From Armatimonadota bacterium (lineage in GTDB: Bacteria; Armatimonadota; Armatimonadia; Armatimonadales; Capsulimonadaceae): a stretch of DNA of 35,700 bases. The notes under the pieces are model-generated. The model was given only the letters and a program-made list of their open reading frames with translations. It was not told the origin of the DNA and ran no database searches. Where the stretch lies: NCBI GenBank assembly GCA_025354405.1, contig JANXMY010000152.1:1-35700 (forward strand), in the 5' to 3' direction. The position numbers and the translations under genes are program-made. Shown piece after piece: positions 13,357-17,855 of the stretch (within the stretch, counting starts at the first letter, position 1; every line of letters starts with the position of its first letter).

Positions 13357-14460
13357 TTAAGCCCGAATGTCTACGGGTCCCATCCGGCGCAGTTTCTTCA
13401 ATGCCCGGAGCTCAATCTGGCGGACGCGCTCACGGGTGACCTGAAAGCGCTGGCCGACCTCCTCCAGCGTGTGTGCATAGCCGTCGTCGAGGCCGAAGCG
13501 CATGCGTACAACGTCTCGCTCACGCGGGGTCAGCTTGTCCAGAACGGCATCGAGCTGTTCGCGGCGAATCAGGTTGACCGCAGCATCTGACGGCGACTGA
13601 TTGGCGTTGCTCTGGATAAAGTCCGCCAGCTGGGCCGAATCTTTCTCGCCAACGGGAGTTTCCAGCGAGAGCGGCTCGGAGGCGATTCGCTTGATCTCGT
13701 TGACGCGCTCGACCGGGACATCCATCTCGCGGGCCAGCTCATCCTGCGTTGGCTCACGCGAAAGCTGCTGCCGAAGCAGACCTTCCGTGCGAACCAGCTT
13801 GTGGATCGTCTCAGCAACGTAGACCGGAATACGGATCGTCCGGCCCTGATTGATCACGGCGCGGGCGATCGCGCGGCGGATCCACCAGGTCGCATAGGTG
13901 CTAAATCGGTAGCCCTTGGTGTAATCGAACTTTTCCACGGCGCGGATCAGGCCAATATTGCCTTCCTGAATCAGGTCAGCGAGGCTGATGCCCGGCACCG
14001 AGTAGCGGCGGGCAATGCTGACCACGAGGCGCAGGTTGGCCTCGGTCAGAATGTCCTTCGCGCGCTGATCGCCGTCGGCAACGCGACGCGCCAGGTCGAT
14101 CTCTTCGGAGGCGTTTAAAAGCTTGGTGCTTTTTGTTTTCCGCATCCACATTTGCAGCGACTCGTCGCGGGGGTTATCCTCGACGGGCGCATACACGGTC
14201 TCCTGCGGCTCATCTTCGGCCATATCCGAGTCAGAGTCGTCATCGCCGGAAGTGCCGTCCATCAGCGGGGCCGAGAGATCGTCATCACCGCCACCAGCCA
14301 TCGCCAGGAAACGAGCCGCATCTGGATCGTCCATCGCGCCGCCGAGCGGGCCGTCCTCCGAGGCGTATTCGTTTCCGTCACGCCGGCTTTCCGACGTCCC
14401 AAGGCCGCGCGGCGTCATTGCCGTTTCCGGGTTGTCCATCAATGCCGTATTGGTCCCCAT
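13357..14460 (-). CDS. rpoD: Primary-type RNA polymerase sigma-70 factor
   Basis: 367 residues. After an acidic, low-complexity N-terminus (residues 1-100, rich in Asp and Glu), region 1.2 begins [20 protein letters not shown]. Region 2 includes [32 protein letters not shown] and [16 protein letters not shown], which contact the -10 element. Region 3 contains [17 protein letters not shown]. Region 4 ends with [15 protein letters not shown] and [20 protein letters not shown], the -35-binding helix-turn-helix. Length and regions fit a group 1 or 2 factor; the full non-conserved region of E. coli RpoD is absent, as in many short SigA proteins. ATG start with AAGGGGAA upstream. I cannot exclude a group 2 paralog without the whole genome. 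Confidence 0.9.
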
Positions 14461-14538: not shown

Positions 14539-14686
14539 GTTCCTTTTACGGAAGTGGGCCTCTCATTGTCACAAAATTTCCACTTTATTTCAGTGATATT
14601 GCTTACGTTTATATAAAAAATTTCTATGAGGTGATATTAACCTGTGAAAAGATACCCAAAGCTGCGCCTTCTCAATCCAGCCGGAC

Positions 14687-15670
14687 TTATCCCAGTGGCT
14701 GACGGGCGGCCCAGGCGATGAAGAGGTTGACGAGGTGCGCATCCCACTGACGACCGGCTCCGGCCTGGAGCGTCTGCAGCGCTTTTTCGGGCGTGAACGA
14801 CGGACGGTAAGACCTGGAGGAAAGCATGGCATTATAGGCATCGGCGATCGCGACGATCCGAGCACCCAAAGGAATCTGGTCGCCGGAAAGACCGTCCGGG
14901 TAGCCTTTGCCGTCCACGCGCTCATGGTGGTGGCGAATGATGGGCAAAAGCGCCGCTGTGGAGCGCAGCGGGGCCATGATGCTCTCACCCATCACCGTAT
15001 GCTTCTGCATCCGCTTTTGTTCCTGATCGCTGAACATACCACTTTTGTTTAGCAGCGCATCCGGCAGCCCAATTTTGCCGACATCGCGCAGCATCGCCGC
15101 CTGTCCCAGCAGGCGCAGGGCTTCGTCAGGCAACCCCAGCTCGCACCCGAGTGCCTGCGCACAGGCGATTACTCGCTGGGTACCACCATCGTGGTCCTCA
15201 TCACCATCACGCACCTCCGCGGCACGGCTCAGGGAATAGATGACATCTTCCACTTCGTCGAGCTGATCATTCAGAGCCTTAATCCGCAAAAGAGATCGTA
15301 CCCGAGCCAGCAGTTCGATCCGGTTGAAAGGCTTGACCACAAAATCATCCGCCCCGGCTTCGAAGCCCAGTACACGCTCCTGTGTGCTGGATTGAGCCAT
15401 CAGCAAAATTACGGGAATGCGGCGTGTTCGGACTTCTTCTTTGAGCGTGCGGCAGACGGAAAAACCGTTTTCCTCTCCCGGCATGAATGCGTTCAGCATG
15501 ACCAGGTCCGGCCGTGTCTGCCGGGCCGTTTCCAGCCCCTGATGCCCACTGCAGGCAGCCAGGACATCGTACCGATTGTCCGTGCGCAGGACGGCATCGA
15601 TCAAAGTCCGGCTCATGGGTTCGGGGTCCACTACGAGAATACGCGGCTTAGCTGTGAGGAGTTCATTCAC
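14687..15670 (-). CDS. Receiver plus degenerate HD-GYP protein
   Basis: 327 residues. The receiver domain (about 10-130) has ILVVDPEP at the acidic site and VMLNAFMPG where the phospho-acceptor Asp normally sits: residue 60 is Asn (codon AAC) and the second acidic residue is Pro16. Lys113 (VVKPF) is kept. The HD-GYP domain (about 140-320) keeps HHHERVDGKGYPDGLSG and VGKIGLPDALL, but the HD pair reads Arg195-Asp196 (codon CGC where His is expected), and the GGxH motif reads GGTQRV. HD-GYP proteins hydrolyse cyclic-di-GMP using these metal ligands, so this copy is probably inactive as an enzyme and unphosphorylated, perhaps a binding or scaffold protein. The GTG start at 15670 is 6 bases after a TATAAT. 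Confidence 0.85.
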   Translation of the reverse strand: MNELLTAKPRILVVDPEPMSRTLIDAVLRTDNRYDVLAACSGHQGLETARQTRPDLVMLNAFMPGEENGFSVCRTLKEEVRTRRIPVILLMAQSSTQERVLGFEAGADDFVVKPFNRIELLARVRSLLRIKALNDQLDEVEDVIYSLSRAAEVRDGDEDHDGGTQRVIACAQALGCELGLPDEALRLLGQAAMLRDVGKIGLPDALLNKSGMFSDQEQKRMQKHTVMGESIMAPLRSTAALLPIIRHHHERVDGKGYPDGLSGDQIPLGARIVAIADAYNAMLSSRSYRPSFTPEKALQTLQAGAGRQWDAHLVNLFIAWAARQPLG

Positions 15671-15676
15671 CCCGTT

Positions 15677-15682
15677 ATTATA
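15677..15682 (-). promoter_or_regulatory. TATAAT box immediately before the receiver/HD-GYP gene
   Basis: Perfect TATAAT on the minus strand, 6 bases before the GTG start, so the predicted +1 is the G of GTG. No good -35 box is seen at 16-18 bp. It falls in the 54-base gap after the mutT stop. Confidence 0.5.
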
Positions 15683-15724
15683 GGAGGGTGGTCAGGGGAA
15701 CGTTACCCGGTAAAGGTGGCGGGT

Positions 15725-16129
15725 TTACTTGGGAAGGGATGCCGAAAGCCGCGCGAGCAGCGGCGTGTTAGCCTCAGGAAATTGGTACTTGTCTAGATCG
15801 GTCGGAAGGACCCAGCGGATATCGTTGCTGCCCAGGGGCCGAGCGTCCCCGGTCTGAGCCTGGCAGAGAAAGGGGTGCAGCGTGACAGTTCGCTCCGGAT
15901 ACGTGTAGGTCAGAGGCGGCCAGGCTTCCAGAACGGTGACCTCCAGACCGGTCTCCTCCCGTGTCTCACGAAGCATGCAAGCCTCGGGCGTTTCCCCTGG
16001 GTAACATTTGCCGCCGGGAAATTCCCAGAGGTTAGCCAGATGCGTGTCGGCCCGCCGCTTCGAGATCAGCACCGTACCGCCAGTCGGGTGCAAAATCATC
16101 GCGATCGCAATAGTCAGAATATTGTTCAC
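15725..16129 (-). CDS. mutT: NUDIX hydrolase, MutT-like (8-oxo-dGTP diphosphatase type)
   Basis: 134 residues. The NUDIX box is complete at residues 40-62: Gly40, Glu46, then RETREETGL, matching GX5EX7REUXEEXGU, with the metal-binding glutamates in place. The short single-domain form with WEFPGGKCYPGE and the 8-oxo-purine-type context LISKRRADTHLANLW fits MutT-like pyrophosphohydrolases that remove oxidised guanine nucleotides from the pool. Its GTG start overlaps the mutY stop (GTGA), so the two are translated together. The pairing with MutY, which removes adenine opposite 8-oxoguanine, supports this specificity, though CTP-type substrates are also possible in this subgroup. Confidence 0.85.
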   Translation of the reverse strand: MNNILTIAIAMILHPTGGTVLISKRRADTHLANLWEFPGGKCYPGETPEACMLRETREETGLEVTVLEAWPPLTYTYPERTVTLHPFLCQAQTGDARPLGSNDIRWVLPTDLDKYQFPEANTPLLARLSASLPK

Positions 16130-17223
16130 AGTTCGAGTCGCCCCTGCGTTTCCTGCTGAAAAAGCAGGTCCGAGAGCTTGACCTGCGGCGTTGCCAGCGC
16201 ATAGTCCCCGCGCGTTTCCGGCGTTATCCAGGCGCGTCTGACAGAGGGTGCTGCTTCTGCCTCCTGGTCATTCTCGGCAGCCGCCTCAAAGCCATGCAGC
16301 AGGATTCGCCGATTGGCGACCACATGCTTGACGACCCCGAATGGAGCCATTCCCGTGACAGACAGGCCGGTGCTTTCACGAACCGCCCGAGCGGCACAGC
16401 ACTCTAAACTTTCGCCGTCCTGCCGGGTCGCGCGTGGCAGCTCCCAGAGGCCGCCCCACAGGGCCAGCTCCGGGGAGCGCTGTATCAGCAAAACCTCTCG
16501 GGCCGGATTTCGGATCGCCACGGAAACATCTTCCACATCCAGCCATTTCTTGACGCCCGTAAACTGCGGGTAGCTTGTCGGATCGCCCAGCTGTTTTGCC
16601 GCGCAGAGATCTGCAACGGGGCAGGTGCCGCAGCGCGGCGCCCCGGCCTCGCAGACTAGCGCCCCCAGCTCCATCATGGCCTCATTGAAGTCCCCTGCCC
16701 GCCCCGTGGGTAAGGCGGCCTCTGCAAGCTTCCAGAGCACTGCCTGTGTCGCCGCGGATGTCTTTGGGTCCCCGGGCACTGCATGGACACGCGAGAGCAC
16801 ACGGATCACGTTCGCATCCAGAATCGGAGCCGCCTGATTGAACGCGATCGAAAGAATCGCACCTGCGGTGTACCGCCCAATTCCCGGCAGTGCCAGCAGC
16901 TGCTTCGGATCCGAAGGAACTCGCCCGCCATGCTCCGACACCACCACCCCTGCTCCCTTATGCAGGTTCCGAGCCCGGGCATAATACCCAAGGCCCGCCC
17001 AGTGCTTCAGGACGTCGTCAAGGGGAGCTTCCGCCAGGCTCTGCACAGTCGGGAACCGGGCCATCCATTTGTTGTAAAAGGGGATAACGGCAGCCACAGT
17101 CGTCTGCTGGAGCATGATCTCCGAGACCCAGACCGCATACGGGTCATGCTGCAGCCGCCGCCAGGGCAGGTCGCGTTTAGAGCCGGCGAACCAATCGAGT
17201 AATCTTTCCGCAAAGTCGTTCAT
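16126..17223 (-). CDS. mutY: A/G-specific adenine DNA glycosylase
   Basis: 365 residues. Removes adenine mispaired with 8-oxoguanine. LPWRR opens the catalytic domain, Glu35 in SEIMLQQTT is the catalytic acid, helix-hairpin-helix LPGIGRYTAGAI lies at about 112-123, and Asp136 in LDANVIRVLSRV is the second catalytic residue. The iron-sulphur loop is intact: Cys191, Cys198, Cys201 and Cys207 (C-x6-C-x2-C-x5-C). Residues from about 225 form the NUDIX-like 8-oxoguanine recognition domain (LIQRSPELALWGGLWELPRA). Length is normal for the family. The ATG overlaps the stop of the macro domain gene (ATGA) and its own stop overlaps the mutT start, giving a macro-mutY-mutT unit. Confidence 0.95.
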   Translation of the reverse strand: MNDFAERLLDWFAGSKRDLPWRRLQHDPYAVWVSEIMLQQTTVAAVIPFYNKWMARFPTVQSLAEAPLDDVLKHWAGLGYYARARNLHKGAGVVVSEHGGRVPSDPKQLLALPGIGRYTAGAILSIAFNQAAPILDANVIRVLSRVHAVPGDPKTSAATQAVLWKLAEAALPTGRAGDFNEAMMELGALVCEAGAPRCGTCPVADLCAAKQLGDPTSYPQFTGVKKWLDVEDVSVAIRNPAREVLLIQRSPELALWGGLWELPRATRQDGESLECCAARAVRESTGLSVTGMAPFGVVKHVVANRRILLHGFEAAAENDQEAEAAPSVRRAWITPETRGDYALATPQVKLSDLLFQQETQGRLEL

Positions 17224-17855
17224 ACGGGTTCCGGCGGCTGGGCCTCACTCGCCCGCACTTTCGATTTGTCGTCGCTGTCCGCCCCGGCATCCAGCGAAAT
17301 ATCCAAATTTGGCGAGGCTCCCCGCAGTACCACCTCATAGGCGGCCCGCATCTGACGGGCGGCGCGCAGCGGCGGCATGAAGCCGGTGTCTGTGCCGAGG
17401 CCCGGCACCAGCAGCGTCTGAATCAGGCCGCCGTGAAGACTATTAAATTCCAGCACGGCCCGCAGGGCCGCACGAAACGCGAGGTAGGGATTGACGGTGC
17501 GGGAAATGTTCTGCGGGACGCGCAGGGTCGGCGCGACCACGAGAAAGGGAAATTGCGGGGCATGGGTGATGATGACCTCAGCCTGCCCGACCAGCAGCTC
17601 TCCGTCGTGCCGGAGGCGTATCACCTGCTGGACTTCCGCTTCGATCTCTTCGCCGAAGAACTCGACGATCTGAGCGTCCAGCCCCCCGTCCATGCGCCCG
17701 AAGGAGTTGGAGGGGGAAACAAGAGCGTCGGCTTCCAGTGTAAAAACGCTGTCGCAGACGACAGAGACATCGGGGAGGCCAGTGAAGTAGCACTGCCATG
17801 CCTCGACAATCAGCAGGTGTGGGTCGCAGAGGATGATTCGCAGGGCAGCGGACAT
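17220..17855 (-). CDS. Macro domain (ADP-ribose binding/processing) protein
   Basis: 211 residues. VFTLEADALVSPSNSFGRMD and GGLDAQIVEFFG give the macro-domain signature (the Asn of the SPSNS region and the Gly-rich loop), and TLLVPGLGTDTGFMPPLRAARQMRAAYE is the second conserved segment. Macro domains bind ADP-ribose and often remove it from proteins, nucleic acids or O-acetyl-ADP-ribose. The C-terminal 25 residues are charged and probably disordered. The gene overlaps mutY by 4 bases, so a link to DNA repair is likely (inference). The ATG at 17855 lies 5 bases after a perfect TATAAT, with no ribosome site, predicting a leaderless transcript that starts 22 bases after the pstB stop. Confidence 0.8.
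   Translation of the reverse strand: MSAALRIILCDPHLLIVEAWQCYFTGLPDVSVVCDSVFTLEADALVSPSNSFGRMDGGLDAQIVEFFGEEIEAEVQQVIRLRHDGELLVGQAEVIITHAPQFPFLVVAPTLRVPQNISRTVNPYLAFRAALRAVLEFNSLHGGLIQTLLVPGLGTDTGFMPPLRAARQMRAAYEVVLRGASPNLDISLDAGADSDDKSKVRASEAQPPEPV

Follow-up and report, generated by a model that had tools for sequence, protein, structure and literature searches.

A protein that has the fold of a phosphodiesterase response regulator, but has lost residues needed both for phosphorylation and for catalysis, raises the question of what it still does. One such protein, a receiver domain joined to an HD-GYP domain, is encoded in a stretch of 35,700 nucleotides (the window) from an Armatimonadota bacterium of the Capsulimonadaceae. 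Degenerate HD-GYP proteins are already known, one by one. In the reading favored here, to which we give a probability of roughly 50%, the protein is a non-catalytic, phosphorylation-independent receptor or adaptor for c-di-GMP, and its partner may be the group-2-like sigma factor encoded beside it.

The preliminary description of this gene was right about its reading frame, strand and coordinates (Table 1), and also in its claim that the fold is kept despite the substitutions, as judged from Pfam scores, a structure model and PDB matches. The receiver domain matches Response_reg (PF00072) with E = 4.6e-21 (75.5 bits against a cut-off of 30.2), and the HD-GYP domain matches HD_5 (PF13487) with E = 1.9e-34 (119 bits against a cut-off of 27). 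An AlphaFold2 model with 27 related sequences as input has a mean pLDDT of 89 and supersedes an earlier, poor model based on 7 sequences (pLDDT 76). Its best PDB matches are the HD-GYP domains of PA4781, PmGH and c-di-GMP-bound DvhD, and its receiver part matches the receivers of PleD, PhoB-type proteins and CheY in fold. The HD-GYP domain is thus recognizable by profile and by fold, and the receiver likewise by its fold. One orthologue, always a full-length open reading frame, occurs in each of seven family genomes; these sample five genera, namely g1 (two genomes, including this one), g3 (two), g4 (one), g5 and g2. The other six orthologues are 39-91% identical to the protein, and residues 113-154 are near-invariant in the alignment of the set.

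Table 1. Positions of the features discussed, numbered along the window
Feature	Coordinates	Strand	Description
Putative promoter region	15671..15713	minus	TATAAT at 15682-15677, TTTACCGGGTAA upstream
Receiver-HD-GYP gene	14687..15670	minus	327 aa, GTG start; predicted non-catalytic, non-phosphorylatable
Receiver domain, residues 11-125	15296..15640	minus	Pfam Response_reg
Codon 60	15491..15493	minus	AAC, Asn replacing the phospho-acceptor Asp; sequence and alignment
HD-GYP domain, residues 160-313	14732..15193	minus	Pfam HD_5
Codon 163	15182..15184	minus	Gly replacing the first metal-ligand histidine (H189 of PmGH)
Codon 195	15086..15088	minus	CGC, Arg replacing the HD histidine (H221 of PmGH); sequence and alignment
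Conserved non-coding element	14565..14618	minus	TTTATATAAAYGTAA-N6-TTACAG, then TTTGAGACAAT
Sigma-70 family factor (group-2-like RpoD paralogue)	13357..14460	minus	conserved neighbor in 7/7 family genomes

The substitutions first reported (Asn60, Pro16 and the Arg195-Asp196 pair) are borne out by the sequence and the alignment, and the GYP (256-258), HHE (within HHHE, 247-250) and DG motifs are present as claimed. In the receiver, Asp15 and Lys113 are retained, and Pro16, Asn60 and Met91 stand in place of Asp, Asp and Thr. Met91, which the first reading had missed, is a further receiver loss: this position, the conserved Thr/Ser switch residue, is Met in genus g1 and Thr in nearly all outgroups. 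The residues of a phosphorylatable response regulator (the acidic pair, the phospho-acceptor Asp, Thr/Ser and Lys) are therefore not all in place, and phosphorylation of the Asp60 type is predicted, with near certainty, not to occur.

The seven metal ligands shared by HD-GYP proteins are H189, H221, D222, H250, H276, H277 and D305 in PmGH. Two of the seven are lost here (H189, now Gly163, and H221, now Arg195) and the other five are present; the intact residues of the domain are Asp196, Lys199, His224, His248, His249, Tyr257, Asp277, Arg286 and Arg289. The first of these losses had been described as a change of GGxH to GGTQ. The loss of the ligand histidine stands, but its counterpart is Gly163, and Gln165 lies two residues beyond. 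H189 of PmGH is the H of HTERV and aligns at position 163, as does the histidine of the g3 orthologues, in which A-H-T-E-R-V stands opposite G-G-T-Q-R-V of this protein. In PmGH, alanine at H189, H221, D222, H250, H276 or H277 essentially abolished activity, and changes in the GYP motif, R314 and K317 caused no substantial reduction (PMC4159591). Because two residues that are essential in PmGH are missing, phosphodiesterase activity is very unlikely, and we predict with high confidence that there is none. With both sites replaced, and with the H189A and H221A forms of PmGH nearly inactive (PMC4159591), the original proposal that canonical phosphorylation and phosphodiesterase activity are lost is strongly supported. 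This argument depends on the essentiality of the lost residues and not on column statistics: within the clade, changes at active-site columns are not significantly enriched over those at the remaining conserved columns (6/11 versus 13/38; Fisher p = 0.30). A preferential loss of catalytic columns was considered and is not claimed.

The pattern of losses differs among the genera. The orthologues of g1, g3 and g4 all have Arg195, which is thus found in 5/7; their residue 60 is Asn, Ser and Asn, respectively, and their second acidic residue Pro, His and Asn. The g5 and g2 orthologues retain the receiver Asp pair and Asp60. The g5 protein has kept the HD histidine and lost His224 and His248, and the g2 protein has lost His195 (replaced by Lys), His224 and His248. 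In every orthologue (7/7) one or more of the seven shared ligands are missing, the two genera with Asp60 have lost other essential ligands, and the full catalytic set occurs in none of the seven. Restoration of Asp and His in orthologues had been named as the finding that would refute the first reading, and the outcome is mixed: three of the five genera keep the losses, two keep Asp60, and one of these also keeps the HD histidine. The suggestion of a constitutively locked receiver fits g1, g3 and g4 but not g5 and g2, which keep Asp60.

One might suppose that the protein has become a different hydrolase, in which Asp196, His224, His248, His249 and Asp277 hold one metal and support a residual phosphodiesterase or phosphomonoesterase reaction on another substrate. 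HD-superfamily enzymes can indeed be mononuclear phosphomonoesterases (PMC4159591), and the GYP-side ligands appear complete in g1, g3 and g4. However, a single alanine at H189 or H221 was enough to remove nearly all activity of PmGH (PMC4159591), and in g5 and g2 it is His224 and His248 that are gone, so that no single metal site is conserved across the family. We regard a hydrolase of this kind as very unlikely.

That several hallmark residues are missing at once could also mean that the gene is decaying, or that an assembly error is responsible, and that there is no function to explain. Yet the substitutions of this protein recur in an independent genome of genus g1 (91% identity), and this recurrence, together with Arg195 in five of seven orthologues, argues that they are not due to chance. 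The reading frame is full-length throughout the seven genomes, its position beside the sigma gene is fixed, and dN/dS against the 91% orthologue, about 0.05 overall, is low to a similar degree in both domains. Such strong purifying selection argues that the gene is functional. A recent mutation, a pseudogene and an assembly error were each rejected on the evidence of the orthologues, the independent genomes and dN/dS, and a gene without function is highly improbable.

In a phylogenetic tree, the seven orthologues lie on one side of a branch with support 86/62, recovered in 87% of bootstrap trees. Two groups, g1+g3+g4 (support 100/99) and g5+g2 (96/94), fall inside this family group, and the tree neighbors of the seven are mostly intact proteins from other families. 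Based on this grouping, and on the fact that no orthologue has a full ligand set, catalysis was probably lost early, at or near the base of the family and possibly more than once. Receiver phosphorylation was probably lost after catalysis, in the ancestor of g1, g3 and g4, an order deduced from seven sequences.

Controls show how far the degeneracy extends. Of 26 outgroup receiver-HD-GYP proteins, which belong to other families of the phylum or to paralogous lines, 25 keep Asp60 and all seven ligands; among 30 HD-GYP domains of paralogues in this genome and a second one (G002), 28 have all seven ligands. The degeneracy is therefore a property of this orthologous set rather than of the HD-GYP proteins of these genomes, and a general sloppiness of the paralogues can be dismissed, with 28/30 intact. 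The lone degenerate outgroup (L107, genome G211) is a distant receiver-HD-GYP protein with Asp at position 163 and Gln at 249; its receiver is changed as well (Glu15, Arg16, Arg113), and it is possibly a separate degenerate line. Within the present genome, a paralogous HD-GYP stretch (L081) has HG for HD, and at another locus (L083) a degenerate HD-GYP copy precedes a copy with all ligands.

The retained residues bear on whether the pocket may still bind its former substrate. In PmGH, R314 and K317 (here R286 and R289) and Y285 (here Y257) contact c-di-GMP, and the complex was observed with only the GYP-side iron present (PMC4159591); the GYP-side ligands are, by inference from the alignment, intact in g1, g3 and g4. 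All seven orthologues have Tyr257, Arg286 and Arg289, and six have Tyr288. DvhD, in which HD has become SQ and HH has become MN, binds c-di-GMP with a Kd of about 99 nM without metal or hydrolysis; binding alters dimer contacts via a stalk helix, and the R650A, Y652A/R653A and P567T changes weakened stabilization by c-di-GMP (PMC13090378). The present protein has, through Arg195, likewise lost the HD diad. In the alignment, the DvhD contacts R650, Y652, R653, Y621, M646 and P567 correspond to R286, Y288, R289, Y257, M282 and P203, and L577, K582, E668, Y523 and R569 are unmatched (K520 was left out of the comparison). The aligned DvhD contacts, together with the PmGH complex containing GYP-side iron alone, favor a c-di-GMP receptor, in line with the earlier suggestion of a c-di-GMP-binding effector. 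On balance, the protein is predicted to bind a cyclic dinucleotide, although with odds only a little better than even. Against this, the contact residues kept here are common to the HD-GYP family, and their persistence could have a structural cause.

The protein might instead be a nucleotide-independent adaptor, that is, a locked response-regulator scaffold that does not bind c-di-GMP and whose partners are the sigma factor, GGDEF proteins or those HD-GYP paralogues that are active. A charged residue, Arg or Lys, at the HD position would fit such a role, as would the differences in metal-site losses among genera and the near-invariant 113-154 stretch, which looks like an interaction or dimerization surface; the degenerate NosR (Rec + HG-GTP) is thought to regulate other enzymes (PMC12570481). 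A pure scaffold would, however, have no need of the conserved Tyr257, Arg286, Tyr288 and Arg289, and we consider this a minority possibility.

The most constant feature of the locus is the sigma gene, which lies directly downstream of the receiver-HD-GYP gene on the same strand in each of the seven family genomes. Beyond the genus the remaining flanking genes are not the same, so that the sigma gene is the sole conserved neighbor, and no conserved cognate kinase or operon other than the sigma factor was found at the seven family loci. At 15725-17855 in the window lies mutY with a C-terminal NUDIX domain, with a macro-domain gene and a small gene of the NUDIX type beside it. The neighboring sigma factor scores 321 bits against TIGR02393 (RpoD_Cterm), below the cut-off of 354 for a primary sigma factor, and another sigma factor of the same genome reaches 367 bits; it is for these reasons most likely a group-2 factor. 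In the sister family the sigma gene is present, and no receiver-HD-GYP gene was found within 1.5 kb of it. The gap between the two genes is 226 nt here and wider in some relatives, with a separate conserved element between them. Gene order makes the sigma factor the leading candidate partner, and on this basis a functional link between the two proteins can be tentatively proposed; direct contact between them is doubtful. There is a precedent in Streptomyces, where the c-di-GMP enzyme RmdB contacts the sigma factor WhiG (PMC13232838).

The genome encodes about 18 GGDEF loci and 2 PilZ proteins. At a separate locus (L129:1367-2692, plus strand, contig C20) a 441-aa open reading frame joins sigma-70 regions 2, 3 and 4 to a shortened GGDEF domain, with a degenerate GGDEF motif (EEHEF) and a retained RxxD I-site-like motif (RRSD). 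Each of the seven family genomes has homologues of this fusion, as do others of the class, and RxxD is retained in g2 and g5. The fusion has the look of a sigma factor with a possible c-di-GMP sensor of its own.

The conserved element between the two genes is common to all seven family loci, lies upstream of the sigma gene and contains an inverted repeat, YGTAA-N6-TTACAG. It was not found at the other sigma loci examined and, with up to 2 mismatches allowed, has no further copy in the genome, which argues against a regulon-wide operator; it is probably the control region of the sigma gene. No Rfam match to a riboswitch or known RNA was found in the window. The receiver-HD-GYP gene had been said to have its own promoter, and here the evidence is divided. 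A generic consensus scan found no consensus sigma-70 promoter upstream of the gene, and there is no standard -35 box, but a TATAAT/GATAAT hexamer is conserved in g1, g3 and g4. In this genome 6 nt separate the end of TATAAT from the GTG start, and a TTACC-G-GGTAA palindrome lies upstream; the hexamer stands 6-7 nt before the start codon in both g1 and both g3 species and 14 nt before it in g4. This spacing suggests a leaderless or near-leaderless mRNA in g1 and g3.

Under the c-di-GMP receptor reading, Tyr257, Arg286, Tyr288 and Arg289 would still bind c-di-GMP, or a cyclic dinucleotide related to it, in the HD-GYP pocket, as in DvhD, and hydrolysis of c-di-GMP and switching by Asp phosphorylation would both have been given up. 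Through the long helix 117-154 and the receiver, binding would shift the contacts of the dimer; the output would be contact with another protein, for which the adjacent group-2-like sigma factor is the leading candidate. A still more specific version, in which the protein is a family-specific, c-di-GMP-responsive anti- or co-factor of the group-2 sigma factor that lost catalysis first and receiver phosphorylation second, is unlikely as a whole. In that version, the level of a second messenger would be read out directly on sigma activity. The locus offers a clear test case for control of a group-2 sigma factor by c-di-GMP pseudo-enzymes. The whole Armatimonadota orthologous set suggests that a response regulator of the enzyme type was turned, step by step, into a protein that is no longer an enzyme; the metal sites that were lost differ among genera, while selection and linkage to one sigma factor persist.

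Among known systems, RpfG-type phosphodiesterases have the same domain order and fold, and 25 of the 26 phylum outgroups are of this type, but in these phosphodiesterases neither the phospho-acceptor nor any metal ligand has been lost. Bd1817 of Bdellovibrio and HdgB of Streptomyces are likewise HD-GYP proteins called inactive or degenerate, although they are described as lacking GYP residues rather than the HD histidine (PMC4159591, PMC6205966). NosR of Burkholderia, a receiver with a degenerate HD-GYP domain (HG-GTP), is alike in architecture (PMC12570481), and its family (NF053512) is the best NCBIfam match, although at 154.8 bits the protein falls well short of the family cut-off of 400. 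NosR keeps the phospho-acceptor Asp and has lost the GYP tyrosine, whereas here Asp60 is lost and GYP is kept; moreover, NosR lies with the kinase NosK and the sensor NosP (PMC12570481), and the conserved neighbor here is a sigma factor. DvhD (DVU1020 of Desulfovibrio vulgaris; PDB 9rbz and 9rc0) also has an HD-GYP fold with the HD diad lost, and its c-di-GMP-binding residues Tyr621, Arg650, Tyr652 and Arg653 are all matched here; it differs in being a membrane protein with dCache and PAS domains that has lost the HH pair (PMC13090378), whereas the present protein has a receiver instead and keeps HHE. By analogy, the mode of action would be most like that of DvhD and the architecture like that of NosR. 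Judged against open-licence papers, the new element is the loss of both sites in one conserved protein, combined with a fixed linkage to a sigma factor.
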